A stretch of DNA of 43,070 bases from a virus. The DNA is taken from the IMG/VR virus record IMGVR_UViG_3300042691_043604, positions 1 through 43,070 of that record. One strand, written 5' to 3'. Each line of letters begins with the position of its first letter. The first letter of the stretch is position 1. Shown here piece after piece: positions 795 to 37,625 of the stretch. The notes under the pieces are model-generated. The model worked only from the letters and a program-made list of their open reading frames with translations. It was not told the DNA's origin and searched no databases. Both the position numbers and the translations under genes were made by a program.

Positions 795-2444
795 TTAACT
801 ATTTAACTTAACGATAGCCTCAATAGTTCCTTCGGCTGCATCAAATTTATCTTCTAAACTCCTGCCAATTACGTTAAATGCTGAAATTTCATTCTTTGCA
901 CCAGCACGAGCTAATCCGTTTCCTGCCGCAACCAGTCTGTCACCTTTTTTAACTTTTCCAATTACACGCACAGGCACTCTGCCATTTACTGCTACTGGAG
1001 GATGACTGATATCATCTCCAGCTGCACCATTCATTAGATAAGCTGCTCTTGTGCTAATAACACCAAACACGTCTTCACTTAATTCTTCGTCTGCTGCTGT
1101 AATTTCTTTAACACCGCCAAGTGCAACTACAGTCCCGGCTGGATAAGGTTGGTCACTGCTGAATCTTTCTGCTAAGTCAGCGTATTTAGCTTGCACCGAA
1201 ACTCCATAGAAAGTATTAAACCACATACCAGTACTTCCAAGATTTACTGTGGTATTGGATGTAGGTAAAATTGTGTCTGAAACATAAACTGTAGCAAGAT
1301 TAGCTCTGGTAGTGTTAACATTAGCAGCAAAAACATTACCAATCAAACTTGATTGTAAGAAAATGTTGCTCCATCTGTTGGTTGTATTACCAAGCGTGTA
1401 AAAAACATTCGAAGTAGGATTGATATTGGCTGCAAACGTACTTGTACCAACACCACCGCCCAGGATAGTATCAACATAATCCTTGGTAGTTAAAGTAAAA
1501 CCGTTTGACGATGCTGTAGGGCTGGCTGTGGCTTCTGGCAAACCTGATATAGCATTGCCTTTAAGAAAGTTTGTTTGTGCTCCTGCTTTTTTTATACTTA
1601 AATGAAAATCTTTGTTATTAGTTACATTCCTAAGTGTAACTTCACCACTTGTAACCAAGGCTTCAAAATCACTTGCAACACCAACCTTAATTCCGGTGTC
1701 ATTGGTAACTGTCAAGGCGCCATTCAACGTACCGCTGACGTCGTTTCTTAAAAACGAACTACCTGGCACACTTGGGAATCCAACACTAACATAAAGGTTA
1801 TTGGCCACGTCTGCAGTGCCCTGGAACGCTTGGTTGGTAATATTAGTTGCCAAATTTAGTCCGGTCTTGACAGTTGCAAATCCGGTCACTGCTGTAGAAA
1901 AAGTTGGCTCTTTGCTCCAAATACCTACCAAAATGTTATCAATATAAAATTTTAATACTACATAGGTAGCAGATGGGCTGGTTGCAACAATAGTGTCTGG
2001 CACTGCACCAGTATTACCAGTTGCGCTGGTAGTTAAAGGACCTACTGCGGTCCATGTGGTTCCGTTGTAAACTTTTAACTGTACATTAGAGGTATCCCAC
2101 CATTGTTCGCCCACAATTGGATTGTTAGGCTGACTTGACCCGGAAGTCATTGTTGCCATAGTTTTCCATGCACTTGCTGCTGTACCTTTAGTAGCTGATG
2201 TGTTTACTTTCAAATACTTACCGGCAGTATCCCACCATAGTTGTCCTGGCAACGGCGCAGTTGGAGCTGCACCATTTGCAAAGTTTTCAACTAAACGAAT
2301 CATGTTTTCGTTTAGGAAAGTACCATATCCTGGGTAATTTTTACCAACAAGGGTTAAACTTGAGCTAACTTGATCAATGGTGCCATCAGGTAGTCCTCCT
2401 GTAATTAATTGCCCACCATTTGATAATGTAATATTGTATGCCAT
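795..2444 (-). CDS. Tail fibre-like protein with C-terminal peptidase-G2/intramolecular-chaperone-like domain
   Basis: 549 aa. Residues about 1-95 form a module (SLTLVG, then NENMIRLVENFA, then GQLWWDT) also present at the N-terminus of the 369-aa fibre encoded at 6214-7323. A second WWDT unit follows at about 105-136. The middle is Thr/Asn/Val-rich beta sequence. From about residue 418 the sequence changes to KYADLAERFSSDQPYPAGTV and an Asp/Glu-rich tail (about 130 aa), which I recognise as the YADLAE-type C-terminal domain of phage fibres related to the self-cleaving peptidase G2 / intramolecular chaperone of neck appendage proteins. In those families the domain helps trimer assembly and may be cleaved off; cleavage here is inference. 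A GGAG site sits 9 bases before the ATG and a late-promoter-like box lies at 2466-2473. Likely a trimeric receptor-binding or baseplate-attached fibre. Confidence 0.8.
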   Translation of the reverse strand: MAYNITLSNGGQLITGGLPDGTIDQVSSSLTLVGKNYPGYGTFLNENMIRLVENFANGAAPTAPLPGQLWWDTAGKYLKVNTSATKGTAASAWKTMATMTSGSSQPNNPIVGEQWWDTSNVQLKVYNGTTWTAVGPLTTSATGNTGAVPDTIVATSPSATYVVLKFYIDNILVGIWSKEPTFSTAVTGFATVKTGLNLATNITNQAFQGTADVANNLYVSVGFPSVPGSSFLRNDVSGTLNGALTVTNDTGIKVGVASDFEALVTSGEVTLRNVTNNKDFHLSIKKAGAQTNFLKGNAISGLPEATASPTASSNGFTLTTKDYVDTILGGGVGTSTFAANINPTSNVFYTLGNTTNRWSNIFLQSSLIGNVFAANVNTTRANLATVYVSDTILPTSNTTVNLGSTGMWFNTFYGVSVQAKYADLAERFSSDQPYPAGTVVALGGVKEITAADEELSEDVFGVISTRAAYLMNGAAGDDISHPPVAVNGRVPVRVIGKVKKGDRLVAAGNGLARAGAKNEISAFNVIGRSLEDKFDAAEGTIEAIVKLNS

Positions 2445-2887: not shown

Positions 2888-5800
2888 TTATTTTCCCAAA
2901 AGTTTTCCAACTTTTCTAACAATTTTGTCTACAGTAGATATACCAGTTACTGCACCTAACAGCACTGTGGTAGTACCCCAAATCAATGCTGTTTTTGCCC
3001 ACATAGGAAGTTGTTTGCCTCGTCCAAATTTTGAAATAGTTCTGCAGAGTGGTAATCCTATGTTCATTACAAATCTTCCGGCTGGATTTGATTTTGTATA
3101 GCCGTCGGCATTCATCCTGTAGGCCATTTCTTCGGCCCATGGTCGAGCTATTACATCTAAATAATGTGCAACAATTTTTGTTTGTAAGTCTTTGCGTTTC
3201 TGTTCGTCCCTTATCCAAGGAAACACTATTTTTCTAAAGGTTGAGCTGCCACCACCTTCTAATAAATCAACAACTGGACCTGCCCAACGCAAATATCCAT
3301 TGTAGGCATCAGGATCTTGGTCCCGTAACATTATACCGAACGCTTGATCGGCTTTGTTCATGGCATGGTCAAAATATCCCAATTCTGCCAACTTTTGACA
3401 AATGATCTTACATCCGCCGCCACCAGAGCCGCCAGGACCTGGAGGTAATCCGGTTCTTTGTAATTTACCGTAATTGCCAAATTCTTGTTGAAATCTCAAG
3501 GTGGTAAGATTGCCAGCAGAATTGGTAGTTCTCCATTGACCGTTAATTTTAACAAAAATTTCATCAACATATCTCCAATCACCTGCCACTTTGACTGCTG
3601 CTTCGCTTATTGACCGCCAATTTCCATTAACTTTTATTGTAGACAGTCCAGTAGGATAGATTTCAAGCGCCACAGCACCATTTGCACCTTCGCTACCTTG
3701 TTTACCACCTTTGGCAAAAGGTGATGCATAATATCTTAAGTTACTACCTGGGGGATCTGTTCCTACATTATCACGGGTGTCCCAATAAACCTTGTCAGCT
3801 GAATCACTTATACTTACAGCAAAACCTTTGTTTAGAGGCGAATTATATAAATTAAATTTAATTTGTTTTACACCTTTTCCAAAGTTTAAACTGATAGGTG
3901 TAGGAGTAGCTGTGCTATTTTGTGTTACTGTTGTTATTAGAACATCGTCAATGTAAACTTCTAAGGTGCCGGTTGCAGCCGCTCGTAGTTTGTATTCTCC
4001 AGAATACACTGTTTCGAATTGTCTTGTAACAGTTCCTGCACCTTGTCCCGCATCAGTAAACCACATGCCGTAGTCATTGAGAAATCGACTCCAACTTGCA
4101 TTGCTAACCGGAGATAGTTCGCCATCTGACCCTACTCGTTGATCCTGTCTCCATCTGACAAGCACTGCACCAGCTGTCCCTTCGCCACCAATTGAAGATT
4201 GTAATTGTTGTGGCCTGGTTTGATCATCGGGATTGGCTGCAAACACGTTAGGTTTAGCTGCGCCGGCACCTGCACTTCCGCATCCTAAACTTGATCCTCT
4301 GTTGGTCTGAGTAACTGCATTTTGTCCCAGTGTCTGTCCGGCACCAGGGCCTCCACCAGCAGTGCCTGTTGTATTTGTTGATGTTGGTGTTGCTCCTGAA
4401 GCGCCAGTACTTGATGATCCTCCGGATCCTAATAAAGTTGTTACAGTCCCGCCTAATCCACTATGTGTAATATTGCCCGCTTGACCGCCTTGTAATTTTA
4501 ACAGATATGTGTCTGTTACTGTATCTCTAATAGAGGTAAAGCCGCCCGCAACAGCCGGTATAAGAGTCAAATTAGCATCAGTAATAGTTCCTGCTGTGTA
4601 TGGCGTTAACTGTGTAACACCTCCTTGTCCACCAGCACCAATGCAAATTTCATAAAGTCTACCAGGTACTACAGAAATGGTTCTATTAGTTGCAATTGCT
4701 CCTTGCCCACCACCAGCACCTCCTTGTGTTAAATTTCCGCTTCCGCCGCCTCCTCCGCCGCCGGTTGCAGAAACTAAAGTGATTGAGGTTACACCACTTG
4801 GTGCAACAAAGCTTACATTACCGGCGGTATGTTTAAACAATTGATTAAATGGGTAGTTACCTCCCGATTGCCCACCAAAAGTGCTGGAATCACCTCCGCG
4901 AACAGTTCCGCCTGCGCCGCCGCCCCAGCCACCGCCGCCTCCACCACCGCCGCCTCCGTCTCCGGTTACACCTTGTCCGCGCTGACCTGCTGTGATATTA
5001 TAATTTGGATGATTTGAATTATCTACATTTTGTAATTCTAAGGCGGAGACCCCAGCATAAATCTGTGCAATATCTGGATATGCTGTCGCTCCGTTTCTGA
5101 TTTTGTACAAAGTTGCATTGTTACCATCATTTCCTGCGCCGCCGCCGCCGGCTCCACCGCCGGCGACTGCAACCACATTACCATTGACTATAATCAGCGA
5201 AGCTCCGCCTCCGCCTCCGCCTCCACCCGATGATCCGCCTGGGCCTGCAGGGTGTCCGTCGGCGCCACTGAAACTTGGAAAGCCAGGCAAATTTAACCTA
5301 CTTGCACCTCCAATACCGCCGGCAGCACTTCCTGCACTGCTACTACCTCCAGTTCCGCCATCGCCTACTACTACTTCGATCTGATCCCCGACCTTGACAC
5401 TGAATTGTGTTTTGTGAAATTGACCAGGGGCTCCAAGGCCGCCAAGACTGCCTGCATCGTTACCGCCACCACCACCGCCAGCACCCCAGAGGTAGGCCAC
5501 TATATCGGCATTGATAGGAGATGTAAGACTGTATCTACCGCAGGTTTGTGTGTATTCTGATACCACTGCTGTGCTTCTTGTATCCCAAACAACATTACTT
5601 TCTGCATCAGTTATATTCATAGCAAAGCCAGCTGGTCCACCGGCTTGTGCTACCTCCATCCTAATTTGATTTATACCTTGAGCTAAAGTTATTTTTGTAG
5701 GTACCGGAAGCGTTGCAAAATTTGTGGTCACATGACCCCAGTAACCCCAATAATAACCACCATAACCGTACCAGGGCCAATACCAGCCGCCATACCATCC

Positions 5801-6211
5801 ATTATAGTATGGACCCACTGCACCAAAACCATCAGTCCAGCCATTTGGATAGTAAGTTCCGTTATAATAATTTCGATTATAGTAAGGACCGTACCACCCA
5901 CCCCACCACCACCAATGATGGTATTCCAAAGTTTGCGTAGTACCGCCTACTTTGAGATCGTTAATAAAAACTTCACCTAAATTATCTGCACTTGAATTTA
6001 CAAAGTAATCGCCTGTGTAGGGAGCGTCAAAAATTCTATATATTGTAAATTTTTGCCTTGTTCCGGAGGTAGTTGGCCAAACTGCATATTGATTAAGAAA
6101 TGTATTCCATCTTGAATCAGTTCTTGGATACAGGACAGCTGGACTTTGCACTGGATTCCCGCTGGGTCCAGAAATTCCAAATATATTTACAATTGGTTGT
6201 CTTTCTGCCAT
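2888..6211 (-). CDS. Large glycine-rich adhesin / tail fibre with duplicated beta-sandwich domain
   Basis: 1107 aa. Residues about 33-212 and 700-815 are two diverged copies of one domain; both share a W-x-x-FLN/FLNDY start, a G-[FA]-A-[VM] strand and a V-x-WDTR end. Copy 1 carries a 64-residue Trp/Tyr/Gly-rich insert at 97-160. Between the copies lie two glycine-rich domains (about 233-450 and 466-695) with polyglycine runs and VGDGGTGG / IGAGGQGG motifs, like the Gly-rich domains of phage adhesins such as T2-type gp38. At about 855-893 a short unit VK[VI]xGxWR occurs three times. The last ~180 residues are helical and include a hydrophobic stretch near the end (ALIWGTTTVLLGAVTGI). Likely a receptor-binding protein of the tail tip. 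No strong Shine-Dalgarno is visible; the ATG lies 2 bases past the stop of the upstream fibre gene. Confidence 0.8.
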   Translation of the reverse strand: MAERQPIVNIFGISGPSGNPVQSPAVLYPRTDSRWNTFLNQYAVWPTTSGTRQKFTIYRIFDAPYTGDYFVNSSADNLGEVFINDLKVGGTTQTLEYHHWWWWGGWYGPYYNRNYYNGTYYPNGWTDGFGAVGPYYNGWYGGWYWPWYGYGGYYWGYWGHVTTNFATLPVPTKITLAQGINQIRMEVAQAGGPAGFAMNITDAESNVVWDTRSTAVVSEYTQTCGRYSLTSPINADIVAYLWGAGGGGGGNDAGSLGGLGAPGQFHKTQFSVKVGDQIEVVVGDGGTGGSSSAGSAAGGIGGASRLNLPGFPSFSGADGHPAGPGGSSGGGGGGGGASLIIVNGNVVAVAGGGAGGGGAGNDGNNATLYKIRNGATAYPDIAQIYAGVSALELQNVDNSNHPNYNITAGQRGQGVTGDGGGGGGGGGGWGGGAGGTVRGGDSSTFGGQSGGNYPFNQLFKHTAGNVSFVAPSGVTSITLVSATGGGGGGGSGNLTQGGAGGGQGAIATNRTISVVPGRLYEICIGAGGQGGVTQLTPYTAGTITDANLTLIPAVAGGFTSIRDTVTDTYLLKLQGGQAGNITHSGLGGTVTTLLGSGGSSSTGASGATPTSTNTTGTAGGGPGAGQTLGQNAVTQTNRGSSLGCGSAGAGAAKPNVFAANPDDQTRPQQLQSSIGGEGTAGAVLVRWRQDQRVGSDGELSPVSNASWSRFLNDYGMWFTDAGQGAGTVTRQFETVYSGEYKLRAAATGTLEVYIDDVLITTVTQNSTATPTPISLNFGKGVKQIKFNLYNSPLNKGFAVSISDSADKVYWDTRDNVGTDPPGSNLRYYASPFAKGGKQGSEGANGAVALEIYPTGLSTIKVNGNWRSISEAAVKVAGDWRYVDEIFVKINGQWRTTNSAGNLTTLRFQQEFGNYGKLQRTGLPPGPGGSGGGGCKIICQKLAELGYFDHAMNKADQAFGIMLRDQDPDAYNGYLRWAGPVVDLLEGGGSSTFRKIVFPWIRDEQKRKDLQTKIVAHYLDVIARPWAEEMAYRMNADGYTKSNPAGRFVMNIGLPLCRTISKFGRGKQLPMWAKTALIWGTTTVLLGAVTGISTVDKIVRKVGKLLGK
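4735..5240 (-). repeat. Clustered GGN-codon (polyglycine) tracts inside the adhesin gene
   Basis: On the plus strand this region shows repeated cc(g/t/a)-type triplets, for example around 4741-4765, 4911-4965, 5140-5165 and 5205-5230. They encode runs of 6 to 10 glycines in the 1107-aa adhesin. The tracts are imperfect at the third codon position, so they are low-complexity coding sequence and not perfect microsatellites. They stand out as locally G/C-rich in an otherwise AT-rich genome. Confidence 0.75.
5732..5923 (-). other. Segment encoding a Trp/Tyr/Gly-rich insert in the adhesin
   Basis: Codes for residues 97-160 of the 1107-aa adhesin. By hand count, 12 Trp, 17 Tyr and 1 Phe occur in 64 residues, with most of the rest Gly, Asn and Pro. 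It interrupts domain copy 1 between the strand ending VFINDLKVGGTTQ and the strand starting PTKITLAQGINQ. The second copy of the domain has only a short loop (about 10 residues) at that place, so the segment is an insertion in a loop. An exposed aromatic loop could bind sugars or a surface polymer; that is inference. Confidence 0.75.
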
Positions 6212-6213
6212 AA

Positions 6214-7323
6214 TTAGGTATACTTAAACCAGATATCTCCGTCATTACCAAGTGTGTTGACTGGATCAGCGGTACTAACAAATTTTCTACTTCCGTCCCA
6301 GAACACTGATCTGGTCATAACATATTGTGTAGTGGCAACTTGAGTGTTGTTTGCCCCAAATGTAGGAGTAGGAGCGACTACATTTCCTGTGAATGTTGGG
6401 CTGTCTTTGTCGGCTTTAAGATTTATATTTGCCACTAATGCAGCGGATTGAGCCAAGTTGACTGAATTGATTTTGTCATTTAATGAAATTATATTAGCAT
6501 TGGCTGATGATACGTTTGCATTTAGCACTGTCACATTTGCCAACATGGCATTTTCTACTGCCACTGTTTGTGCCTGAGCGGCTGCAATATTTCCAGCAAG
6601 TGTGTCAACATTTCCTGTAATTGCAACATATGTGTCAAGATTTATTTGATCTACTCTATTGTTAGTTGCCCTTAGAGATATTTGCACATTTGCCGCGGTT
6701 AAATTTGCTCGAAGTTGATTTTCTTCGCTAATTCTTTGCACCAAATTGGCATTAATGACCGCTACATTCGATGATATAGCAGAAGTCGCGTAAAATCGTA
6801 AATTTTGTATTTCGCTATCTACATAAACTTTTGTAGGAATTCCAAAATTACTTGTTGCATTAGCCAACACTGTAATTAAACCACTACTGCCATTGATGTT
6901 TAATACATTTGTACTAACACCGTTTACGTTGGCAAATAAGCTTATGTTACCATTGTTGTACTGATTGTTTATAACTACATTACCAGTTAAATCTTTTATC
7001 TGAAAATCGTTTGGCCCTATATTGAGATTGCCTGTTAGATCTACATTGCCTACTATTTCGCTGCCAACTGTGATCCATTGGTCCCCAGTATATACTTTAA
7101 TATTGTTTACATTAGTATCATACCATAACTGACCTGTAGTGGGAAACGGTGGACTGTTGTCAAAAGCAAAATTTTCTAACAAGCGTACAAAGTTTTCGTT
7201 GGTTTGGTCGCCGTAATTTTGCACTAATCTTCCGAACAGGGTCAAGCTTGTGCTGGTAGTATCTTTGGTTCCATCTAATACAACAATAGTTGTACCATCT
7301 GTTTTTGTTACAAAATATGACAT
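6214..7323 (-). CDS. Tail fibre protein with coiled-coil stalk
   Basis: 369 aa. The N-terminal ~85 residues share the SLTLFG / NENFVRLLENFA / GQLWYDT module with the 549-aa fibre, suggesting a common attachment or folding unit. A middle region from about 180 to 300 is rich in Ala, Asn, Val and Leu with heptad-like spacing, typical of a trimeric coiled-coil or beta-helical stalk. Near the end is the fibre motif SPTFTGNVVAPTP followed by ATTQYV, seen in many phage tail fibres, then a short tail with GDIWFKYT. An AGGAT site lies upstream of the ATG. The 3-4 base gaps to both neighbours place it in the tail-fibre operon. Probable short fibre or connector; the partner proteins are not known. Confidence 0.8.
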   Translation of the reverse strand: MSYFVTKTDGTTIVVLDGTKDTTSTSLTLFGRLVQNYGDQTNENFVRLLENFAFDNSPPFPTTGQLWYDTNVNNIKVYTGDQWITVGSEIVGNVDLTGNLNIGPNDFQIKDLTGNVVINNQYNNGNISLFANVNGVSTNVLNINGSSGLITVLANATSNFGIPTKVYVDSEIQNLRFYATSAISSNVAVINANLVQRISEENQLRANLTAANVQISLRATNNRVDQINLDTYVAITGNVDTLAGNIAAAQAQTVAVENAMLANVTVLNANVSSANANIISLNDKINSVNLAQSAALVANINLKADKDSPTFTGNVVAPTPTFGANNTQVATTQYVMTRSVFWDGSRKFVSTADPVNTLGNDGDIWFKYT

Positions 7324-7327
7324 AGTG

Positions 7328-8029
7328 TTATCCTAAACTACTTAAATTGGTTAAAGTTTGAATTCTAACAGTGTAATCAATCTGTATTAATCTATTTAGA
7401 CTTTTTTGTACAGGATGGAAAACCACGTGTGTTAACAATTTGCCTGTTGTGGTCAAACCAGAGGTCCCATCCAGGCTGCGTGCTTTCAATCCTAACTCAT
7501 CAAATGTATAAGTATCATCTAATCGTGTAGAATTGTCAAATGCGCTTTGTCCTGTAGGTTCTCCATAGTCCAACAAACAACTAATTACTAAATCAGAATA
7601 AATTCTTCCAGGTACATGACGCACTTCAATTTTGTTTCGTGTTGGATCTGTATTAAGTGCGCTGGTATTGTCTACAATTTTTGCAAAGGTAGGATTGTAC
7701 AAATTACTATTGCTGGTATTAACATTTGATGGCAAATAGTTGATTACTCCAGTAGGATCAATGCTGGTACCACCATTACCAAAATGCATTTCATAGATAT
7801 AACTTTGCCCTTTGTTTGCAAGAGTATAAGCTATTGCTTCGCTTATGTTTTCGTAATGAATAGCGTTACGTTTGTTTACATATACTTCGCCAGATTCTGG
7901 ATCAAAAATTTTGATGTGCCCTTGCACATGCACTCCATTTGTTTCGTCAGGTTTTTTATTGGTTTCCATAAATTCATTCTCAGTAACGTCTGTGTTATCC
8001 ATTTTAGTATTTAGCTGTGGTATTATCAT
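7328..8029 (-). CDS. Virion structural protein (baseplate/tail, conserved type)
   Basis: 233 aa. The ATG overlaps the stop of the giant gene in an ATGA (4 bases), which supports this start over an internal ATG at 8002 that lacks a ribosome-binding site. After a charged N-terminal tail comes HIKIFDPESGEVYVNKRNAI, then ISEAIAYTLANKG and HFGNGG, and a C-terminal part with DLVISCLLDYGEP. I associate this type with structural proteins of T4-like marine phages but cannot give a T4 number. It occupies the place of gene 8 in the T4 order 6-7-8; homology to gp8 is not evident by eye and it is shorter (T4 gp8 is 334 aa). Most likely a baseplate-periphery or fibre-attachment protein. Confidence 0.7.
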   Translation of the reverse strand: MIIPQLNTKMDNTDVTENEFMETNKKPDETNGVHVQGHIKIFDPESGEVYVNKRNAIHYENISEAIAYTLANKGQSYIYEMHFGNGGTSIDPTGVINYLPSNVNTSNSNLYNPTFAKIVDNTSALNTDPTRNKIEVRHVPGRIYSDLVISCLLDYGEPTGQSAFDNSTRLDDTYTFDELGLKARSLDGTSGLTTTGKLLTHVVFHPVQKSLNRLIQIDYTVRIQTLTNLSSLG

Positions 8030-11000
8030 GGTGTATAACTTGGTTCCTCTCTAATAAACTGAGCAGCGAGCGCGGTGCTGCCCTCTAATCCCACTCCAGT
8101 GTTAAGTGGTATCCATAGATTGCTTTGAGTAATTGTTTCATTTACCAAAGTAACATTACCATTTGCATCTACCTGCCCTAAGATTTCCATGGCTCTAACA
8201 TTGGCTACAGTGCCAAGATACGTGTTGTTTAACTGATTAAAAATAGTTAGCACATTTGAGCCAATAGTTAAATTACCCGTCACAAAATGCACTGCAACTG
8301 TGTTTGAAGAAACCACATTGCCGAGCAATCTTACATTGGCTGTGTTACCAGATTGTACAAGATAATTTCCAATATTTGCTGTGATTGGGCTACCTAATGT
8401 GATTCTCCAGGTCACGTTGGCTGTGGTATTGTAATTGCCAGTAACAGTGGCAAATTTTGGCGCCGAATCTGGTAACACTTGTACCAAGCTTGTGTCAACA
8501 ACTTTAGAGTTAGCTAAGTGCAAAGTTGCTGCACCTGTGCCATCAACTCCTCTACGCAGTTGAGAAAGAGTGTTTACAAAAACCTGTCTCACACTGCTGT
8601 TACTGATATATGACGTAGAGTTGGCATATACATTACCTAACACCAAATATGTGTTGCTGTTGTAAGCAATTAAACTGTCAATGCTGTAGAATGTGTTAGC
8701 AGTCCAAGAACTGGCTGCTGCTATTTTTGCACTATCATACTTTTGATAGTAATGGATCAATTCACCGTTAATAAATATTTCGCCTGGTATCCCTGAAGCT
8801 GCTCCAGGATCTGGCAGTACCGTTACATCGCCTACAAAAATATCATGATCAGCTACTCCCAAATTCGCGCTCAACATCGTGGTAGCATTGGCGCTGATTC
8901 TATAAAATTCAATGTTACCGCGCATGGGTTTGAATTCTCTAAATCCGTATGTAGCTGTGTTGGAGCTATTGTTAGTAAATGTTCTTATTTCTAATGCATC
9001 ATATATTCGTCCAGGAATCAATTCTTCTGGTGCGTGACTGTGATAGCCATCAACGTAGCTTCCGCCCACGATATTGATATCTTCAGGTCTGGTACCAAGC
9101 GCAGTGTCTTTGTAAAAACTTGCAATATTGGAATCTAATAGATTGTCAATAGTAAGATTGGTTATCTTGACATTGGCTGTGCCTCCTGTGATAATTTCTG
9201 ATATACCAGCTGTACCAGCCACACCGTTGATTTGTATTGTGTTCGCCGACACTGTAAATCCTGTTACACTGTGTATGATTTGAATAACATTGGCATCAGC
9301 ATAGTCATGTAAAATAAATGCGTTTGCAGTAGTGTTTGACTGTGTAATGTAGTCGCCTGCCTGAACATTCGTTACATTTGAACTTAATGTAATGGTGTAT
9401 ATGGTTTCGATTGGAGGACCCGATAACATCATTTCTGTGTGATCAACACTAATAACCTTGAAATCGGCGTCGTTTTTAAAGTCAAAGTTGTATTGCCCTC
9501 TTATACGAATTGTATCATCTAATTCAAATCCGTTTTCAAGAAAATCTACGGCTTGTATATTGGCGCTGGTAATTTTCATTCCGGTATAATTAAATCCAAT
9601 AATGTTACTTGTGAAAGTAAAACTATTAGCATCAAATCTTTTTCCTTGAATTTCGTTGCCCGGAAATCCTACACCGAACATCAACTGTTCCAAGTCTTTA
9701 CCTGGTCTTCCAACTTCCGGGAAATAGTAGGCTGATATTCTATCAGCCGCATTTAATAATATATTTCCACTATCTACTTTGTTATATCTTGTAAAATCAA
9801 AAATTGATTGTGAACTTATATTAGCATTAGTTGCAAGGTATGCTTCATTGTTGTAATAAATGAGATTTCCACTGGTAATATAGACATTAGAGTCAATGGG
9901 AATAATACCATCAGAATTAAAATTGTACTGTCTAATTTCGTCTGTGCCGGAGTCTGACACATAAATTTTTGTACCATCATAACTTACAAACATGCCTGTA
10001 GGGGTGTTTGTTTCAAGGTTAAAACTGTTAGTAAATACGGCAGTTGAAACGTCCCAATTGGTGGTTAGATTGTATTCATTTATACTATCACTTTGTTGTC
10101 CAATAACATATAGTCGTGAACCATCTGTTTTAAATCTAATGGCAGTTGGAAAATTATCCTTTGGCGCTATTGACAATGATTTACCAGAATAGTTGGCAGT
10201 GGATATTTCCCACGGTACTGTCATTGTGTATTGATATACTGTATCATTTAGTGTGCCTAAAATATACAAATTCAGTCCATCTTGACTTAATTCTATTGCA
10301 CGAGGGCTTGATTCTTCACTGCTTATATCCAATGAAGACACAACCGATGCGGTATTAACCATCCAGGATGTGGCCAAACGATACTGATAAATTGAGTCAG
10401 TGTTTGTACCAATGGTGAACATTTCTGTTCCGTCATCCTTTATGAATAAGCCTTGTACATTTGTATCTTGTGGAGCTAAATTGGCTGCGCCAATATTTGC
10501 TGCTGTAGAAACATCCCATGGGATGTTTAAACTGTATTGATAAATCCTATCTGTACTATTTCCAACGATGTACATAGCTGTGCCGTCGCCTTTAAAAAAT
10601 ACTTCAGTCACATCGTTGTCTTGTGAGGTTATCACGGTAGATTCTACATAACGTAATCTATCTAAATTCCATGCATTTGCTTTGTTACCATCAACCACTA
10701 TAGTTGATTGATATGCAGTATTGGGTTGCCATTCAACTATGTTACTTGAATAAGCTATCCTATCAAATTTTAAACTTGTTGAGATTCCGCGTACGGTATT
10801 ATAACTGCCGTCCTGATTATATTCATTATGCAGTAAAGGATATGCTGTGGCGCCTTCACCGACACCATTGATAAAAACTGTAGGTATGCTGGTGTACCCC
10901 GATCCAGAATTCGTGACAAAGATTCCTGTTAGTTGACCTGTAGTTGAATTTATAGTGGTAATAGCAGCAGCACCTGTTCCGCCGCCGCCAACTATTTCAA

Positions 11001-14000
11001 CATTAGGTGGTAGAATATAATTCTGCCCAACATTGCCTAATAGATACCCAGATACTTTGAATTTATAATTTTCTGCGTAAGTGTTATAAATTGGAACACT
11101 TTCAAATAGGGCTGCATCTGACGATTTGGTCACGTCCGGCGATCTAAAAGTTTCCTCCGATTTAAAATATCTTGCTGGCAAATCAAAGTCCGCCCAATTA
11201 CCAGTGACCTCATCTATTTTACTGTACTGAGGAACAAATTCCTTAATAATTGTTCTATAAGGTTTAACTTCTTTAATATAATCCTCGTAAAAACTTTGAT
11301 TGTCTCTTATATAATTAGGTAGTTGTTCCAAGGTACGTAAACTGTGATATACATCAATGAAACTGCTTTTAAAAATCCAGTCTGGATTTTTTTGTTCTCC
11401 AATTATAAAGTTAACTATCGAGAAAAACAAAGTATTGAATTCTATAGCCAAACTATTGATAAGAATTTCTTTGTACACACTGTCAAAAATTTGTCCAACT
11501 TCTTTGGCCGCCACTGGATCAAAATCAACTATATCAAACACCGTTGAATCAAATCCTGCTCCATATTTTATTTCATACAGAGTGTCTTTGAATTGTACTG
11601 ATGCATTTTGCGCTGCAATCAAAGTCAAACTCAAATCGGCTTCTACATTAAAGATTAACCAATTGCCTATTCCATCATCTAAAATTTTTACATAATCATT
11701 TGGTATTAAATTTAGCGACAAAATCTGACCATAAGTGTCAACTACGTATTTTATTTCTTTACCGGTTTCGTATTGTTCGCTGTACCAATCTATTTTGCTC
11801 CACCATATAGATGTTTTATAACTCTGAATAATGTCTAACTCGAACTTTTTTGTGTTGCCGTTAAACTTGTAAAGTGTCCATCTTCCATCAAATCTGGCAT
11901 CATTCCTAATTAAAATTGTGTATCCGTCTGCAAATGCATCAACATCTAAATATTCAATTTCAGTAAACGAGCCGGCTTCGGCATCATATCCTGAAGGGAC
12001 AACATCTTCGGAATATAAAGTAGCCGGGTTTGAAATTAATAAAACAGGATTTTTTTCAAAAATTCTATTCAACTGCAAAACAAAATTCTTTAATGCTGAT
12101 AATCTGTTTACAAAGATTCCCTGTCTTGGCCTTATTAATAAACCAATACTGTTCTCAAGAGGCAGTTTTGGGTCAGGTACAATTTTACCTGAATCATCAA
12201 AACCCACAAGACTATCTTTCATTTTGTTAAGAATACGTGCAGGTATTTTTTCGTTTGGATTTCCTTGCTGTATCAATTGATATTCGTTATGTATAAGATT
12301 TGTATTCCTTGAAACAGCGGTGTCAACATGTAATACCACGTCGTTAGCTATTAAATTATTAGAAATATTGTACAAGGCCAAGCTATTCTGCGACAACGCA
12401 GCCATGTATGGAATATTTTGATCTTTTGGATTACTAATATATTTTTCCAAAGATTGAATACTTAGAGATCTCTTAGATTGTAATACATCTACAGAAGTTT
12501 TATTTCCCACCCAATAGTAATACTTTTGTGATATGATTCCAGTTGACGGATCTACTATAGTTACGCTTGTATAAGCCGAATTGTCTGGATACTTAGGGAT
12601 ACCGTCTTGTCCAGAATTAGTATACTGACTTGGTAGGAAATTGCTTTCTACCCATTCGTAAATTTTGACTTGACTACCAGGAAAAAGAGATCCCCAATTT
12701 TTTTCTCTATACTGCAATGGGCCTTGCTCATATTCGATAAAACTTGACTGACTGGTGTCAAACCATGTCTTCCCAACGTGACGCGACGACCAATAAAAAT
12801 TACTATTTTGAATTTGATTGGTTCCTTGTGCCACGTTATACGCAGCAGGATCAAATTCTTCTTTGTAGTCCAATTCTTGGTCTACTATTCCTAACAATTT
12901 TCCTTTGGCTGGATCGTAAATATCGAAGAATGAAATAATTTGTTGCTGTTTTTTATTATAGATAAAAGCAGAATTGATTGTGGCCGGGTCAACTTGTTTT
13001 TCCTTGTATCTTATTAAATCCCAACCGCCTGTGTTGTTTTCGTTATAGTAAGCATAGATACTTCCTCCACCAGATACAATATTATAGTCGTTGGTAACGC
13101 CGGCTACAAGTGTGCCATTGTAGATACTGGTACTGGCACCAAAATTAAATCCGGTATCTAAGTCGGGTCCTACAAGTTTTTGAGTATAGGCAAAAATTGC
13201 TGGATTGTCTTGCGATTCAAAAGGATTTTCCATCAAATCATATATGTAGACTGCCCCTGAATCTTTGGCTAATGCAACAAAGGTTGTGCTATTACTATCA
13301 AATGTTGTTAATGTGAACGAAGTGTCAAATGTGGTTGGCACAGAAATGTCGGCACCGTCGCTGGTCACCGCCAACATTCCCGACACTTGTGACAAAGCTA
13401 ATGCTGTACCAAATCTTTCTCCGTTCAAATTTGGATGCTTAATTGTTTGAGCAGCGGTATAAATTTCTATGCCTAAATCGTATATAACAGTTCCTACACC
13501 CATCTTTATGTCAAGTTTATTGTTAGCTACTGCACTATCACTTGTGATTTTTATTTTATTGTTGAAATTTTCAGCTTGTACGCCTGGAATACTGGCTGCA
13601 TTAATAAGCGATATTACACTTGCTAAAGTTGTTCCGGCCACTGTAAGTGTTCGGTCATTGATAACAAAAGTATCACCGGGCACTACAGTAGGATTTTCAA
13701 TTGTTCCTGTCACAATCCCATAAACTCTACCGTTGTTTACATAACGAGTAACCAATCCTTCACTGTAATGCTGTTCGGCATAGTAAGGACTTGCTACATA
13801 AACATTGCACCCGGTGTTGCATACTGCCACCGCACTACCAAATTTTTGTCCTATGATGCCACTTATTGACGGGTACAAATCTTGGGTAGGTTGAAAATTA
13901 TTTGTTTCGACTCTTATTTTTTGGCCTATCACAGGTGTAGCAAATGGAGGAAACTGTATAGCACTGCTGCCAATCAAATAGTAATCAGTTCCTTGTACTA

Positions 14001-17000
14001 ATTCTTGATTATTAAATGTAACTCTAAAAACATCCGCAACTGGCTGCGGCAAATTGAAAGTTCCAGAAACTCCGTCGGTGGTAAATTCTGCTATTGTTCT
14101 ATGATAAACATTTACTTTACCGTTGTTGTCAATATCAAAATTCGTATCCAAGTTTGATCCTACTACTATCACAGACCCGTCCTTGTTGGTCACAACAGAC
14201 GTACCAAAGTTAGCGCCTGGAGTTGAGCCCGATATAGTGCCTATCAATTTATAAAACTTTGATCTTCTAATTAAATCAATGCGTTCAAAATTTACTGGGG
14301 CAGCAACGAAACTAATGTTGTCTACTGGTCCATTATTTGATACAGTTATTGTTAAATTGTTTGCAGGTGCAGAGCCACCAAGGCTACTACCCAATATTGT
14401 TAATGTATCGCCATTGGCGTAACCAGATCCGCCGTTGATTCTTGATACTGAATAGGCGCCAGAATTGCTATTAATAACAGTAAATGTGGCGCCAGATCCT
14501 GTACCACCTGTAGCTGCTAAGTTATTGTAAGTTAGTGTTCCGGCACCAGTAGCACCGGTACCTACGGTTGTAAAGTCTATAACGGCATTGGCAGCGGTTG
14601 TTAAAGTATAGTCCACTGTAGGAATATATTCAGCCGATCGCAGTGTAGCAAAAACTACAACATCACTCCTGCTATCTACTGCTGAGGTGAGAGTAAAATC
14701 TGTAGCACTACCAGTGCCTACTATGCTTTGAGCACCTTCTGTTCTTGTTACGAGTGCATAACAAAGCACTTTATCTGCCCCAGGAGAACCAATGTACATA
14801 TAACTGCCGTCGTGACTCATTGCAATTGCACTGCCAAAATAATCTGTAGCTACACCTGTGTCGTCGGTAATAATCTGAATTAAAACTCCATTGTCATACA
14901 TGTACACGTAGCCTGTTCCAGACTGACTATCTGGAGCTCCTACAGCAAAGTATCCATTGCCATTGGCAACCACTTTGCCGTAGCTATCTAATCCTGTGCT
15001 GTTGCCCCAGAAAAATGAACTTGGTGCCCATGAGTTATTACCGGCACGAACAAAAATAGCTGCTCTGCCTGTTCCTGAGTTTGGGGCACCAGCATACAAA
15101 AGTGTTCCTGTGCTTGGATCCAGACTTACTGCCTGTCCAAAATTATCATTACCGCTCATCTTACTTGGATCTAATTCTACTTTGTTGATAAACTTCCAAG
15201 GACTTGTTTTGTTATATACTCCCCAATTTTGTTCGGCGTCTAAGTTGTTAACCCATATTTTATCGTTTTCTACCCAACCCTGAACTGGTCTCACAGACTC
15301 AACATCGCTGGGTACATTTATTTTAGTTGAAGTAAGTTGAAATAATATTCCCGAACCCCCTACTGCTTGTTCGTCTTTTATTTTTTGTAAATTTTGATAC
15401 ATGGTAATAGTAAATCTATTTGTATCTACTACGCTAATAACTTTGTAAACTCCATCATACCTCGAATCAAAATTCTTAATTACGATCAGATCAGATTCTG
15501 ACAAGCCATGATCTCTATCAAAATAAACTTCTACAGTATCATCAATAATATATCTCAATGCAAATAGCGATCCTTCGATTAAACTGGCTCTATACACGTT
15601 CCAATTTTTTGTAAAGTCTCTTGCTACCCAAATCTTGTATCCTATACCAATGTTATTAACAATGGTTGTTAAAGTTTCATAATCTTCTATGTCAAAGATA
15701 GTGGCATCAATATCGTCAAGATTTACGAATCCTGCCACCGGTAAAGACTTATAGACCTTGGGTTGACTATTGGTTTCTGCTGCAAAAAGTTTGGCCGCGT
15801 ATTCGCCAGCAGACTTAAAAATATCACTTTGATCAAATGCAACGACGTCTGGTTCTTTGACAACTGTGTCATCTACAAATTGTAAAGCAGTAGGGTTACT
15901 ACTAAATGCAGATTCATTTAATTCAATTTCTATAAATTTATTAACGTCAGTAGCACCATATTCGCCTATCCTTACTGCCCAGTTTTCATAAAAATTAACT
16001 TGAGTTTCAAGATTGTTAAAGTTAGCGCCTTTTAGAGCATTTATAGCATTTACTGTACCTTTTTGCTTTATCAACCCTTGGTAAAATTTACTCTGTGTGG
16101 TTGCGTCAATACCAAGATTATTAAAGTATTGTCTATTTCTAAATCCAATTAATCCATTGCTGAATAATTGAGAATCCTCGGCAATTGGTTGGTTATCTAT
16201 GTCGTAAAAATTCACCCCTTGCTGAGCATTTGTTGCAAAATTGTTGATAACTCCAGATCTTAATTCTGATGATGATATCAATTTCCATAAGTTGGTTTGG
16301 AATTGGTCTGAAGCAGTAACATTTTGTGTGGCTGTGTAAAATCTAAATTTGTATTTGACTATAGACCCTTTTAAATAATCCTGCCCAGGTAACCATTCAT
16401 CCACTTTATCGCTGCTGTAGATAAAACCTGGCAATTCTAAACTGCCGTTCCACCCACTGGTTTTTGCGCCTACCAACTTCAATCTATATTGTCTATTACC
16501 CAGTTCTGGTACGTATAGAATATCATTGAAAACCGTGATATTGTCTAAAATTAAAAGATGTTCAAATTGAACCAAATTTAATTCAGCGAAGCCGATAGTT
16601 TGATTTGCATTTGATTTAAATGTAAATGTGTTGCTACTTCTATAAGCAGTAAAATTATTTTTGATGATTGGTTTGAAATTGACGTCTAACACCCTACTCG
16701 AATAAGGAGTATTTTTAATCTCGTCCACAACCGACGATTCGTCAAAAACTTTCAGTTCAGTGCTTACCGGACTCAACACAATTATATTACCCGATTTCCA
16801 TCCTTGTGTGCTCCAGTGTAAAAACTCTTTAGCACTTAAAATCCAGTCTTTTTGTTCTTTTAAGTCATTGTCTCTATCAACAAAAATAAATCCTTGAGCC
16901 AACAAATATCTTTGGTAACTTACTAAAAAATCAACAACTTGTTGCCGTGAATTAAATTCAAAACCATACGGCACAGTGTACTTGGCATTTTTAAAATCTT

Positions 17001-20000
17001 TATAGATGATGCCGCGTTCTTTCCCAGCTGTGATACTATATGCATTATTATTCACTTGGCTCGGAATAATAAAAAAATAAGGATTTGTTAAATCAAAACC
17101 ACTTACTGTATACCCGCCTGGACTTTTTTCTACAATAACTGCACTGTAGGTAATTTTATTAACCGGACTTCCTTTGTAAAGCTCTATTCTATAATTTTCC
17201 TCCGGTACAACCACACTGTCGTTAATGCTGCTGGGACTGCTTTGTTCAGCCAATAATTCAATAAATCGTTTGTCGGTGTATCCGGCCATTTTGTATGCCA
17301 GCTGTACGTCAAGCTCACTTAAATTTTCTTTAATTTGTGCAGCAGCATCTCCTATGCCCAAATTTTTAACGTAATCTCTTATCCAGTTTAAGTAACCGGC
17401 ATTGCGTTCAATAGTGCCGTTGTTATCATAGCCTTGAATCAAGAGTGCAGTAGGAGTAATGTGTTGCCCTGTGGCTGAAATTTCAAATTGACCAGTGATT
17501 GGATTTCTAATATAATTTTGAGTATTTGCCAACAAAGAAAAATACTTTGCTGGCTTGGCCAATGCCAATGCCATTTGTATAGCGTAAGGGAATTCACTGC
17601 TTCTACGCCATGCAGCTTCAACAGGACCAATATCCCCAACAGCGTAGCTGGTATTTGCTTTTGTGCTATCAAAATCGGCTATTAAACCAAATTGTTGCCC
17701 AGTTACCGTGTTGTAACCTCCTATTTCTGTAGGTGGTCGCAAATTACCATTTTCGTCTACTGGTATCATAAACGACAAATTAGGACGTTGATATCTTGAA
17801 TCAAATCCAATTCTTGGACCATCATGAATGTAACCTAAACTAAGGTCGCTCCATAAAATACTATTTCCTCCAGTGTATGGAGCAGGGCCATATCTATCTT
17901 CCCAGTAGCTTGGCTTTTCGCTGAATCCCAACATTTCCCACGGGTGTGTATGCGGTCTATCAGTATCGTAAAAATATTTGAAGATACTACGCCACGACCC
18001 AGGCGAGCTTTCGCCATTAACTGCATCAATAAATTTTTTATAATTCCACGTGAAAGGATCGGATGCCACAAAATAATCATTAGTGGTATAATCAACCCTA
18101 TTAGTGCCAATCCAAGATAAAAATCCTTGACTTAGAATTTGATTAAATTCTCCAAGCGAATAATCAGTTACTCTAAACTTACCCGGCAAATAGTCGTACA
18201 AATTAAAAATATTTGTATCATAGACTACCTTGATATTGTTGTAGATACGACGTTCTAATTCTAAGATAAGTTGGTCTCTAAAATCACCAAAAGCAGGCAT
18301 GATACTGCCGTCATGTCCTTGAATAACGTCAATTGGTTGTCTATAAGTGTCGTCGGTATAAATTTCAGGATAGTATTTGGGATACATGCCCATCTTAGTC
18401 GGAGTCTCGGGCACAAAACAACCATCGGTATTATTGTATTCAACAATATCGATTCTGTCTCCGTACAATAAACCAAAACTTTCTGTTATTTCTACTGCCG
18501 GTCGATCTTGTCTCAAGAAATAATCTCTATCTTTGATTAGAAGAGTTTTTTGCTCAATATTGTTTATAGTTCTTGTTAAATAAACTAACACAGATTTGTT
18601 ACTAATAACTGTGTCAACAAAAATTTTGTTAATTTCATAGGTCTTAATATCAGGATCTAACACAGTGTACGTAGGAATAATAACTCGTTCATTAGGTCCA
18701 TATGGCAGCATGTCGCTATAAAACCACGGAAAACTATCATTTTTAACTGCGTTTATAGTCAACATTATTTGATCAACACTACCAGGAATATCATCTCTAT
18801 CTAATTCTAAATTGCCTGCTAATTCAATGAATTTAATTTTAAATTTTGAATATTCTCTATTGGCCAACTTAATGGAATCAACGAAATTCATTGTTGGGTG
18901 ATTAAGAAATAGTCCAGCATATACCACCGGCGCACTATGCTGTAATACACTACCTCCTTGATTTACATATTGAATATCTCTTAAATTACTATTACCAGGC
19001 ACTGATCCTTGAACATTTAGACTGTTGTTTTTTAACGTGATTAAATGGTTTCGTAATTGCCCTAATGTTAATGTAGTTAAATTACTATTCAATCCGTTTA
19101 CGTCAAGATTGAGTGGTACTTCGTAGTAAGCTTTATTTGATGTAAAATTTTTGTTGAAGATACTAATGAAAATAATATCGTCTTTTTTAATTAAATCAGG
19201 ACTTACCAAAATTGCATACTGATCCACTACCTTAGTTAAAACAAAACTACCTATGTTTAAAATTTGATTATTGACAGTAATTTTGATGTTCGGATTAATT
19301 ACGCTGCTATCGGGCGGATTGTCGATTGGAAACAAATTGGTCTCACCATCATACGTAAATTGATAGTTTTGGTATTGTTTAGAAAAATCTCTATTGATTG
19401 TCCAGATATTCTGTCGCTGATTTATTTCTGAACTTAGATTTTTTTGTAAATACCCAGAATTAACTTCAATTGTTTCAACTGCCCCGTTGGCCAACAGATA
19501 GGTAAATGTGTCCGAATCAAAATTATTGTCAAATTGAATATCACCTTGACTTACAAAGTTTTTATAACTTAACGGAAATCCTATCACAGGATCAGCGGAT
19601 CCTGTACCTTTTTGGTACGAAAATATTTTTGTGCCTTTGAACGTTGTTCCTGAATAAGTTAAGTTATCCCCAAAACTTATTCCGTTGTCATTGATAATGT
19701 CAAATAATGGTTCCTGGCTGTATTCTGTTTTGGTTTGTGACGCAGTCCACAAAGATCCATTGTAGTGCCATTGTTTGCCCCCGTTGGTTCCAGATAATAC
19801 CACTACAGTGTTTCTTTCTACAATGTTGGTATCATCAGTTTCCTGTATATAAGCTTTATAAATCACAGAAGGTGGGAATTCCGTGGTCGCTTCAATTGTG
19901 AAATTATAAATTTTATTACGCACATCATTGTTGATATCATTGCTAAAGATCACTCTATCGCCATGTGTAAGAGTCAAGTTACCTATCGTTAGTGTAGTCT

Positions 20001-35067: not shown

Positions 35068-36087
35068 ATGAGTAATCTATTTAAACGAGCAGCAGTCTGC
35101 ACAGATATACACTTTGGACTAAAAAGCAACAGTCAGACACACAATGAAGATTGCTTAAACTTCATAAAATGGTTTACAGCCAAAGCCAAAGAGGAAGGTT
35201 GTGAAACAGCTTTCTTTCTTGGTGACTGGCATAACAATCGTGCCAGTATCAATATTGTTACTCTTAACTATAGCCTTAGAGCTTTGGAGCATTTAAATGA
35301 CAATTTTGGCGCTGTTTATTTTATCCCTGGCAATCACGATCTTTATTATCGTGACCGACGTGATGTCCAAAGTGTTGAATGGGCACGGCACTTGCCTAAC
35401 ATTCATATATGTAACGATTGGTATCATAGCGGCGACGTGGTTATTGCTCCTTGGCTCGTTGGTGATGATTATAAGCGGATTCCTAAGCTGAGTGCCAAGT
35501 ACATGTTTGGACATTTTGAATTACCAACATTCTACATGAATGCAATGGTGCAGATGCCCGATCATGGCGATGTCAAGCGAGAAGACTTTACTGGCATTGA
35601 ACATGTATTCACCGGACACTTCCATAAAAGACAGACACAAAAGAATATTACATACATCGGTAACTGTTTCCCGCACAACTATGCAGACAATCACGACGAT
35701 GAACGTGGCATGATGGTGCTGGAGTGGGGCAACGATCCAGTGTACCATTCCTGGCCCGATCAACCCAGATATCGTGTGTATCAACTAAGCGATGTGCTTA
35801 CTAATACAGATAGACTATTGCACAAGGGCATGCATGTGCGTGTGAATCTTGATGTAGACATTAGTTACGAAGAAGCAACCTTTATTAAAGAAACATTTGT
35901 TAGTACCTACGACCTTAGAGAAATTACACTTATTCCTCAAAAAGTAACAAACGAAGATATTAACTACGATATTACAGGAAACATAATGTTTGAAAGTGTA
36001 GACACTATTGTTACCAATCAGCTTACAAATATACAAAGCGAACAGTACAATGCCAAATTGCTAATGGATATATATAAAAATTTATAA
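35068..36087 (+). CDS. gp47: Recombination endonuclease subunit gp47 (Mre11/SbcD-like)
   Basis: 339 aa, the T4 gp47 length. Calcineurin-like phosphoesterase motifs are all present: D13-x-H15, G52-D-W-H55, G88-N-H-D91, H149 in GHFE, and H184-x-H186 in GHFHKR. With gp46 it forms the Mre11-Rad50-type nuclease that resects double-strand ends for T4 recombination-dependent replication. In this genome the gp46 gene is separated from it by a radical SAM gene. Its stop overlaps the next ATG as TAATG. No good Shine-Dalgarno is seen in the 38-base gap after gp55, which holds nothing else I can identify. Confidence 0.95.
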   Translation: MSNLFKRAAVCTDIHFGLKSNSQTHNEDCLNFIKWFTAKAKEEGCETAFFLGDWHNNRASINIVTLNYSLRALEHLNDNFGAVYFIPGNHDLYYRDRRDVQSVEWARHLPNIHICNDWYHSGDVVIAPWLVGDDYKRIPKLSAKYMFGHFELPTFYMNAMVQMPDHGDVKREDFTGIEHVFTGHFHKRQTQKNITYIGNCFPHNYADNHDDERGMMVLEWGNDPVYHSWPDQPRYRVYQLSDVLTNTDRLLHKGMHVRVNLDVDISYEEATFIKETFVSTYDLREITLIPQKVTNEDINYDITGNIMFESVDTIVTNQLTNIQSEQYNAKLLMDIYKNL

Positions 36088-37625
36088 TGATTAATTTATC
36101 AAAACATTCAGAATATGGTGATCATTGGTTATATGATAGTTTGGAAGGTTTTAAACAAGAAGAAATATCAGCTAATTTTAAATTAAAGGTATTTTACACT
36201 TCAGATAATTTTAACAACAACGACTCAATTGGCTTAACGCTTTGGAAATTTTATGAATATATATCAATTATTGACTTTCCGTGTTTTTTTATTCATTTAT
36301 ATACCAACAAGTCAGATATAAGTAATGATCTAAAATTTTTAAAGAATACGTTCACTCCTAACGATGTAGACATTAACTTACATAGTATTAGCGGGTCTTT
36401 TAATAAAATATTTAAGAATAAAGATTCATTTTGTATTTTACCATGGATAAGTTTACATATTAACGCTCAGGGACTCGTAGGACCTTGCTGTCAATTTAAC
36501 GAACATTATCCTTTAGGAAATGTAAAAAATGATAATTTACTTGACATCGTTAACAGTGCCAAATTAAAAGAAGTTAGAAAACAAATGTTATCTCAGCAGA
36601 GGCCTAACATTTGTAGTAATTGTTGGGTACAGGAAGACAACAATGCTGTTTCTTTGCGTCAAACAAGTAATCAGGTGTTTAGTAAATACCTTCCTTTTAA
36701 AGAAAATACTAATACAGATGGTTCTATAGATAGTTTTAAATTAAAGTACATTGATTTTCGAGCATCTAATATATGTAACATGAAATGTAGAATGTGCGGA
36801 GGCAATTATAGTTCAAAAATAGCACAAGAAGATCTTATACTATATCCAAACATTACAATTAATAAAAATTTTATAGAAAATAAACTAAACAAACAATCAA
36901 TAAAAAATGTTCTTATCTTCATTGAAAACAACATTGACGAATTAGATACTATATATTTTGCTGGCGGCGAACCATTGATAATGTATGAACATTATAAAAT
37001 TTTAGATTTATTACTTGAACATAATAAACATGATTTAGACATTAGTTACAATTCAAATTTATCAACATTAAAATTTAAAAACTACAATTTATTAGATTAT
37101 TGGCAAAAGTTTACAAATATTACCCTACACGCAAGTATTGATTTGATAGGCGATCGGGCTTCTTATGTACGCTCGGGAGTAAATTATGATACCATTGAAA
37201 ACAATTACAACTTAATTAAACACTTAGTTGATTTTAAAATTGATAGCACTTTAACAATTTATAATGCATTTAATTTAATGGACTTACAACAGTATTGGAT
37301 AACAACATACAATATTTCTCCCACGAAATTTAACATAAGATTATCGATGCTGCCCCCGTATGTAATGTCATGCCAAGTATTACCTGATCATTTTAAACAA
37401 CAAGTCACAGAAAAAATAAAAAATCATATAAATTGGTTAGAACAAATAGTTGATAGTAATTCTCTTATACAAAGATGGCACGATGTGTTACAATTTTTAA
37501 ATGCTAAAGATCAAAGTCATTTACTTAAAGAATTTTTTAAATTAAATGACACAAAGGATGCGTATAGAAATGAAAAATTTACTGACATTTTTCCAGAATA
37601 TAAAGACTTAAAAAAATATGTTTAA
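36087..37625 (+). CDS. Radical SAM protein 1 with N-terminal twitch/SPASM-like region
   Basis: 512 aa. A SPASM/twitch-like iron-sulfur region precedes the core: FCILPWISLHINAQGLVGPC with C134-C135, then GNVKNDNLLDIVNSAKLKEV and C176-x-x-C179. The radical SAM cluster motif is C230-x3-C234-x2-C237 (NICNMKCRMCGG), followed by the SAM-contacting GGEP in IYFAGGEPL. This architecture (twitch domain first, then radical SAM) is known from a widespread family of unknown substrate. The first ~100 residues are unlike either domain. The gene overlaps gp47 by 1 base and gp46 by 8 bases. Five sampled 60-base rows average about 26% G+C against about 39% in three gp47 rows, hinting at a different origin. Substrate unknown. 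Confidence 0.85.
   Translation: MINLSKHSEYGDHWLYDSLEGFKQEEISANFKLKVFYTSDNFNNNDSIGLTLWKFYEYISIIDFPCFFIHLYTNKSDISNDLKFLKNTFTPNDVDINLHSISGSFNKIFKNKDSFCILPWISLHINAQGLVGPCCQFNEHYPLGNVKNDNLLDIVNSAKLKEVRKQMLSQQRPNICSNCWVQEDNNAVSLRQTSNQVFSKYLPFKENTNTDGSIDSFKLKYIDFRASNICNMKCRMCGGNYSSKIAQEDLILYPNITINKNFIENKLNKQSIKNVLIFIENNIDELDTIYFAGGEPLIMYEHYKILDLLLEHNKHDLDISYNSNLSTLKFKNYNLLDYWQKFTNITLHASIDLIGDRASYVRSGVNYDTIENNYNLIKHLVDFKIDSTLTIYNAFNLMDLQQYWITTYNISPTKFNIRLSMLPPYVMSCQVLPDHFKQQVTEKIKNHINWLEQIVDSNSLIQRWHDVLQFLNAKDQSHLLKEFFKLNDTKDAYRNEKFTDIFPEYKDLKKYV

Follow-up and report, generated by a model that had tools for sequence, protein, structure and literature searches.

Based on full-length relatives, Pfam matches, and the sequence itself, positions 2888–6211 of the minus strand encode an adhesin-like protein of 1107 residues in the window, that is, the whole stretch of viral DNA analyzed here (43,070 nucleotides, IMG/VR record IMGVR_UViG_3300042691_043604). 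The protein is composed, in order, of an N-terminal segment of 24 residues, a first PA14-like domain that carries an aromatic insert, two glycine-rich domains, a second PA14-like domain, NG.WR repeats, and a C-terminal domain, and all the features described for it lie on the minus strand. The N-terminal segment (6140–6211) is 88% invariant among the full-length relatives and is a candidate for attachment to the neighboring fiber. The two copies of the PA14-like domain span 5564–6139 (copy 1, residues 25–216) and 3767–4126 (copy 2, residues 696–815). The first glycine-rich domain (4847–5563, residues 217–455) was assigned from its sequence and from a Gly_rich_2 match (4.1e-6) in one A3-set member, and the second (4142–4846, residues 456–690) matches Pfam Gly_rich_2 (PF21722) with 37.4 bits and an E-value of 3.5e-9. 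At 3528–3639 (residues ~859–894), three short repeats of the IKVNGNWR, VKVAGDWR, and VKINGQWR type resemble those of a Vibrio phage KIT04 protein. The C-terminal domain (2891–3421, residues 931–1107) is 52% identical to the C-terminus of protein 28 of Synechococcus phage SynMITS9220M01; that protein also has a glycine-rich region and is otherwise different from the 1107-residue protein. The last ~170 residues (CKIICQKL..ELGYF..., seen also at 9001–9513 of L004) include a hydrophobic stretch near the end. No Pfam or PHROG family matched this domain, which appears to be mobile among the C-termini of phage adhesins.

The adhesin-like gene follows, by 2 nt, a gene for a tail-fiber-like protein of 369 residues (6214–7323, minus strand), which has PHROG tail fiber matches and an N-terminus like that of a fiber of Agrobacterium phage Atu_ph07. 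This protein is the candidate carrier to which the adhesin may be attached. Downstream of the adhesin-like gene, a gene for a 134-residue protein is followed by a gene for a fiber-like protein of 549 residues (795–2444, minus strand) with a Peptidase_G2/intramolecular chaperone domain, assigned by Pfam and PHROG. The N-termini of the 549- and 369-residue proteins are homologous, with about 45% identity over ~80 residues, which would fit attachment of both to one virion site. Upstream of the fiber genes lie T4-type baseplate genes and a gene for a virion structural protein of 4730 residues (8026–22218), which has an internal match to a head-closure PHROG. The closest counterparts of the baseplate wedge protein are those of the jumbo phages Atu_ph07, SCTP-2, and GAP32. 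Moreover, the order of baseplate wedge, giant virion protein, small proteins, and fiber is common to the window and the Atu_ph07 locus, with radical SAM genes nearby. Given this kinship and this gene order, the window most probably comes from a jumbo myophage that carries an additional adhesin module. The N-terminus of the Atu_ph07 fiber is 47% identical over 88 residues to the fiber of the window. Atu_ph07 has one such fiber, and in its fiber stretch, no adhesin of the 1107-residue type is annotated or was detected with the core domain profile. The two radical SAM genes of the window lie on the plus strand (36087–37625 and 41292–42506), near late sigma factor and SbcCD-like genes; in Atu_ph07 and Phosso, radical SAM genes are likewise found near the fiber genes.

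The aromatic insert occupies 5732–5923 of the minus strand, which corresponds exactly to residues 97–160 of the 1107-residue ORF, with the sequence YHHWWWWGGWYGPYYNRNYYNGTYYPNGWTDGFGAVGPYYNGWYGGWYWPWYGYGGYYWGYWGH. A recount on this ORF bore out the coordinates and the aromatic count that an earlier, sequence-only reading had given: 30 of the 64 residues are aromatic (12 Trp, 17 Tyr, and 1 Phe), and a further 16 are Gly and 3 are His. The same reading had described the insert as one of the most biased coding stretches of the window, and it is in fact the extreme. In the other long ORFs, no stretch of 64 residues contains more than 16 aromatic residues, and when all 13,885 residues of the window's long ORFs were shuffled 300 times, the count never rose above 24. 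The binomial tail for the observed count is 1.3e-13 per position and about 2e-9 after scanning. At the DNA level, no tandem array beyond about two copies was found in the insert, and the sole direct repeat is imperfect and in-frame (18 nt, 75 nt apart).

The insert splits the β-sandwich of copy 1 (residues ~25–216). A profile of the core without the insert detected copy 1 in two halves, one on each side of the insert, and copy 2 as an undivided match, in agreement with the earlier claim that the insert is missing from the second copy of the domain. Copy 2 was assigned by this core profile, by AlphaFold, and by Foldseek; its AlphaFold model (pLDDT 70.5) consists of eight strands and one short helix. 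The top PDB match of this model was 6m8m, the PA14 sugar-binding domain of an RTX adhesin (probability 1.00, TMq 0.51, E 1.9e-3). Next came protective antigen, many complexes of MpPA14 with sugars, and modules of CBM35 and CBM29; E-values in this series ranged from 1.9e-3 to about 2e-2, and probabilities reached 1.00. For neither copy did Foldseek give a match below E 1e-3. The copy 1 model, which includes the insert, is weaker (mean pLDDT 45, with the core mostly at 50–75 and the insert at about 30), and it matched PA14 and related carbohydrate-binding proteins less strongly than that of copy 2. Structure prediction had been proposed in the sequence-only reading as a check; structure search supplied a carbohydrate-binding-type (PA14/CBM) fold, but the predicted coordinates of the loop are untrustworthy because its pLDDT is about 30. 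Additionally, copy 1 is homologous to copy 2 and gave weak matches to cyanophage PA14 proteins. The domain of the window itself did not match Pfam PA14 (PF07691), and the relative L010 scored 16.4 bits, under the gathering score of 24. Since the assignment combines a fold, weak sequence similarity, and a Pfam score under the cut-off, we call the domain PA14-like, by predicted fold and by weak sequence similarity, and not a certified member of PA14.

Relatives were taken from IMG/VR contigs (L002, L007, the partial L008, L010, L012, and L018) and comprise four distinct insert sequences besides that of the window. L003, L005, L006, L011, L014, and L027 are on the same contig as L002, and L012, L016, and L030 share the insert of L010; these were not counted as independent. 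L002 is 87% identical to the window protein, and the full-length relatives of the 1107-residue protein are P0002 (87% identity), L007 (61%), and L010 (66%). Two pattern matches, L009 and L013, have open frames of only 22 and 51 codons and were taken as chance. A pattern scan of genome contigs gave 34 matches and 0 relatives, and an extra scan with full-length alignment gave no further relative. When the full protein was searched against phage GenBank sequences, matches were confined to the C-terminal domain (Synechococcus phage) and the NG.WR repeats (Vibrio phage KIT04), with none at the insert. The insert is present in every IMG/VR relative whose sequence reaches that point. The contig IMGVR_UViG_3300047476_001053 (L018 7298 / L031 5298) stops exactly at the first codons of the insert (ERHH); strain variation of the loop may have broken the assembly at this point.

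An alignment of homologs had also been proposed as a check on whether the insert varies between strains, with unchanged conservation named as a refutation. The insert varies strongly, from 28 to 64 residues, with lengths of 28, 29, 29, 53, and 64 residues in the five sequences. Aromatic residues account for 47–53% of each of the five forms, and charged residues number 0–2 in each. The first anchor, HHWWWWGGW (5894–5920, residues 98–106), is identical in the window, L002, L007, L008, and L010, and the second anchor, WYGYGGYYWGYWGH (5732–5773, residues 147–160), is semi-conserved. Among the relatives, the consensus starts with HHWWWWGGWxG and ends with GYxGYWGxxG.xTT, and the end pattern W.GY.G.WG..G..TT is nearly invariant. 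Between the anchors lies a center that varies in length and sequence (5774–5887, residues 109–146) and is mostly missing in L007, L008, and L010. Aromatics are also abundant, far beyond chance, in the segments by which the long forms exceed the short ones, at 16 of 36 (P 1.7e-7) and 14 of 25 (P 2.4e-8). The conserved ends suggest, at the level of sequence, a fixed structural or chemical part beside a variable part.

Between the window and L002, the insert carries 11 of the 12 gapped codons of the whole gene; if the five indel events were uniformly placed, the probability of at least four in the insert would be 5e-5. Furthermore, pN is 0.231 in the insert versus 0.075 elsewhere in the gene (about threefold), and it stays well under pS (0.716), with synonymous change near saturation. 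Because the raised pN is accompanied by a pS near saturation, the loop changes fast but under purifying constraint. In the wider family, the second glycine-rich domain and the C-terminus also carry indels or length differences, which makes the loop one variable site among several. L010 (2670–6386, minus strand) has ~170 extra residues inside the second glycine-rich domain that are missing from the other relatives.

PA14 lectins bind sugar via a calcium ion held by an Asp-Asp pair (DcisD) together with a second loop (CBL2; L11 in MpPA14) (PMC6218569, PMC8092209). Loops L1–L3 surround the pocket, and in Cea1A, L3 is packed directly against the ligand; the order in Cea1A is DcisD at 191–192, the ligand-touching L3 residues 227 and 230, and then N257 of CBL2 (PMC6218569). 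In MpPA14, Gln156 and Gly157 of the second loop take part in sugar coordination (PMC8092209). In copy 1 of the phage protein, D76-N77 (5981–5986) lies at the DcisD (CBL1) position when the domain is aligned with PA14 domains of cyanophages, where DD or DN is found in most cases. This pair is Asp-Asn and not the canonical Asp-Asp of PA14 lectins; it is kept in copy 1 of all relatives, and copy 2 is without any such pair. It is followed by the insert at residues 97–160 and then, after the strand GINQIRMEV, by a loop that starts near Q189. Within this loop, QAGG (5636–5647, residues 189–192) is the presumed second ligand loop (CBL2/L11), as aligned and by reference to the roles described in PMC8092209 and PMC6218569. 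At this position, which is located by alignment only, L007, L008, and L010 have Asn, and the window and L002 have Gln. The distance from the loop to CBL2 is similar, with 27 residues in Cea1A versus 29 here. Because the insert aligns between the pair at the DcisD position and the loop at the CBL2 position, it occupies, in terms of this alignment, the segment that holds the specificity loop L3 in PA14 lectins. Copy 1 may use calcium.

Collectively, we favor, with a probability of roughly 0.58, the reading of the insert as an enlarged contact loop of L3 type on a PA14-like lectin domain, which would belong to an accessory tail-fiber adhesin of an Atu_ph07/GAP32-like jumbo myophage. The β-sandwich core would hold the loop at the two conserved anchors, HHWWWWGGW and GYxGYWG..G, and the lectin-like frame would display this large loop of aromatic residues and glycines at its sugar-binding end, flanked by the two calcium/sugar loops. 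The Trp and Tyr side chains could stack against sugar rings or against hydrophobic areas of the host surface, and the glycines would allow the chain to fold around its target. The conserved ends would fix the loop. The variable middle would contact the host surface and, as that target changes, would change with it through in-frame insertions and deletions and through substitutions. An insert of this kind would be exposed, would bind sugar or host polysaccharide, and may affect host range. The proposal of the sequence-only reading, that an exposed Trp/Tyr cluster binding polysaccharides or hydrophobic surfaces may determine host range, is partly supported by the variation of the insert, the fold of the domain, and the aligned position.

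The main rival to the contact loop is a structural role, which we regard as distinctly less probable. Aromatic–glycine packing would then hold copy 1 on a glycine-rich domain, on the neighboring fiber, or on its own copies, serving assembly and not recognition. Two glycine-rich domains directly downstream of copy 1 are in line with such packing, and the invariance of HHWWWWGGW in five of five sequences goes beyond the need of a pure recognition loop. However, an interface partner should constrain the length of the loop, so the range of 28–64 residues and the 11-residue difference between proteins that are 87% identical elsewhere count against this role; moreover, the protein's own second copy of the domain has no such loop. 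We consider it improbable that the insert is a non-specific sticky patch, which would keep the phage close to cells by binding weakly to hydrophobic surfaces or to many polysaccharides and whose middle would vary without specificity. The composition fits such a patch (half aromatic, with 0–2 charged residues), and the PA14 lectin MpPA14 binds many sugars (PMC8092209), but the fixed ends and the presence of the Asp-Asn pair only in copy 1 suggest an organized site.

Two mechanisms of variation were also weighed. Neutral low-complexity expansion by replication slippage could be read from the in-frame 18-nt direct repeat and from the repeated GYG/GYW-like motifs; it is nevertheless very improbable, given a lack of tandem DNA arrays, synonymous change that nears saturation while amino-acid change is about threefold lower, and an aromatic share kept at 47–53% in all forms. 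We give almost no credence to targeted hypervariation by a diversity-generating retroelement. A variable stretch located in a phage adhesin would suit it, but the variation is largely in length, and diversity-generating retroelements are not known to produce length variation. In the window, which is a genome fragment, there is no template copy of the insert (the best other match is 15 nt), and no reverse transcriptase family is among the matches of the window genes scanned.

The contact loop can be compared with several known systems. PA14 lectins (MpPA14 of Marinomonas primoryensis and the yeast adhesins Flo5/Epa/Cea1) have in common with the phage domain the β-sandwich fold by Foldseek, the adhesin context, and, by alignment, a loop order of Asp-containing loop, variable loop, and second ligand loop. 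In contrast, the phage domain has Asp-Asn instead of Asp-Asp, a core of only about 120 residues, a W/Y/G loop of 28–64 residues, and no match at the Pfam cut-off. The PA14 proteins of cyanophages (ACG-2014g, Syn33, Syn30, and S-SM2; T4-like phages) share the W..F(L/M)N.YA(V/L) start and an SADN/NADD-type motif, whereas their local identity is only about 28–39% at weak E-values and their loop is short and non-aromatic. A further known adhesin, gp38, is a glycine-rich phage protein with hypervariable segments (PMC12892980). In T-even phages, it caps the tip of the fiber whose gene comes directly before its own; here, the gene 2 nt upstream is that of the 369-residue candidate carrier. The gp38 adhesins of T2, S16, and PP01 share with the present protein a glycine-rich scaffold, a gene located right after the tail-fiber gene, and variable segments in a conserved frame; here, however, the variable loop is aromatic and sits on a PA14-like domain, not on a polyglycine sandwich. 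The gp38-like trait consists of two glycine-rich domains (Gly_rich_2, E 3.5e-9) that contain indels, a likeness at the level of sequence. The gp38 family is absent from the Pfam and PHROG matches, and the PDB sequence matches include none that is relevant. Finally, antibody CDR-H3 is likewise a variable loop rich in Tyr, Trp, and Gly with fixed ends on a β-sandwich, which is an analogy only, with no homology. A PDB profile match to the CDR-H3 of an antibody heavy chain (6cw2, E 6e-4) was rejected as compositional.

PA14 adhesins, cyanophage PA14 proteins, and glycine-rich phage adhesins with hypervariable segments are already known. In the open-licence literature, we found no description of a phage PA14-like domain whose L3 segment holds a long, length-variable Trp/Tyr/Gly loop with fixed ends. 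Searching the same literature for phage adhesin loops rich in aromatic residues or in glycine gave no relevant result, which is weak evidence given that scope. A wider proposal, which we offer tentatively and rate as somewhat more apt to be wrong than right, is that a group of environmental jumbo phages has grafted a CDR-like, length-variable, anchored Trp/Tyr/Gly loop onto a PA14 lectin frame and follows the host surface by in-frame length change, not by point change alone. If true, this would provide a compact, testable example of a phage that has made a tunable receptor probe out of a generic sugar-binding fold. The insert would also mark a candidate host-contact site in jumbo phages, and its forms constitute a natural series of loop lengths (28, 29, 53, and 64 residues) on nearly the same frame.
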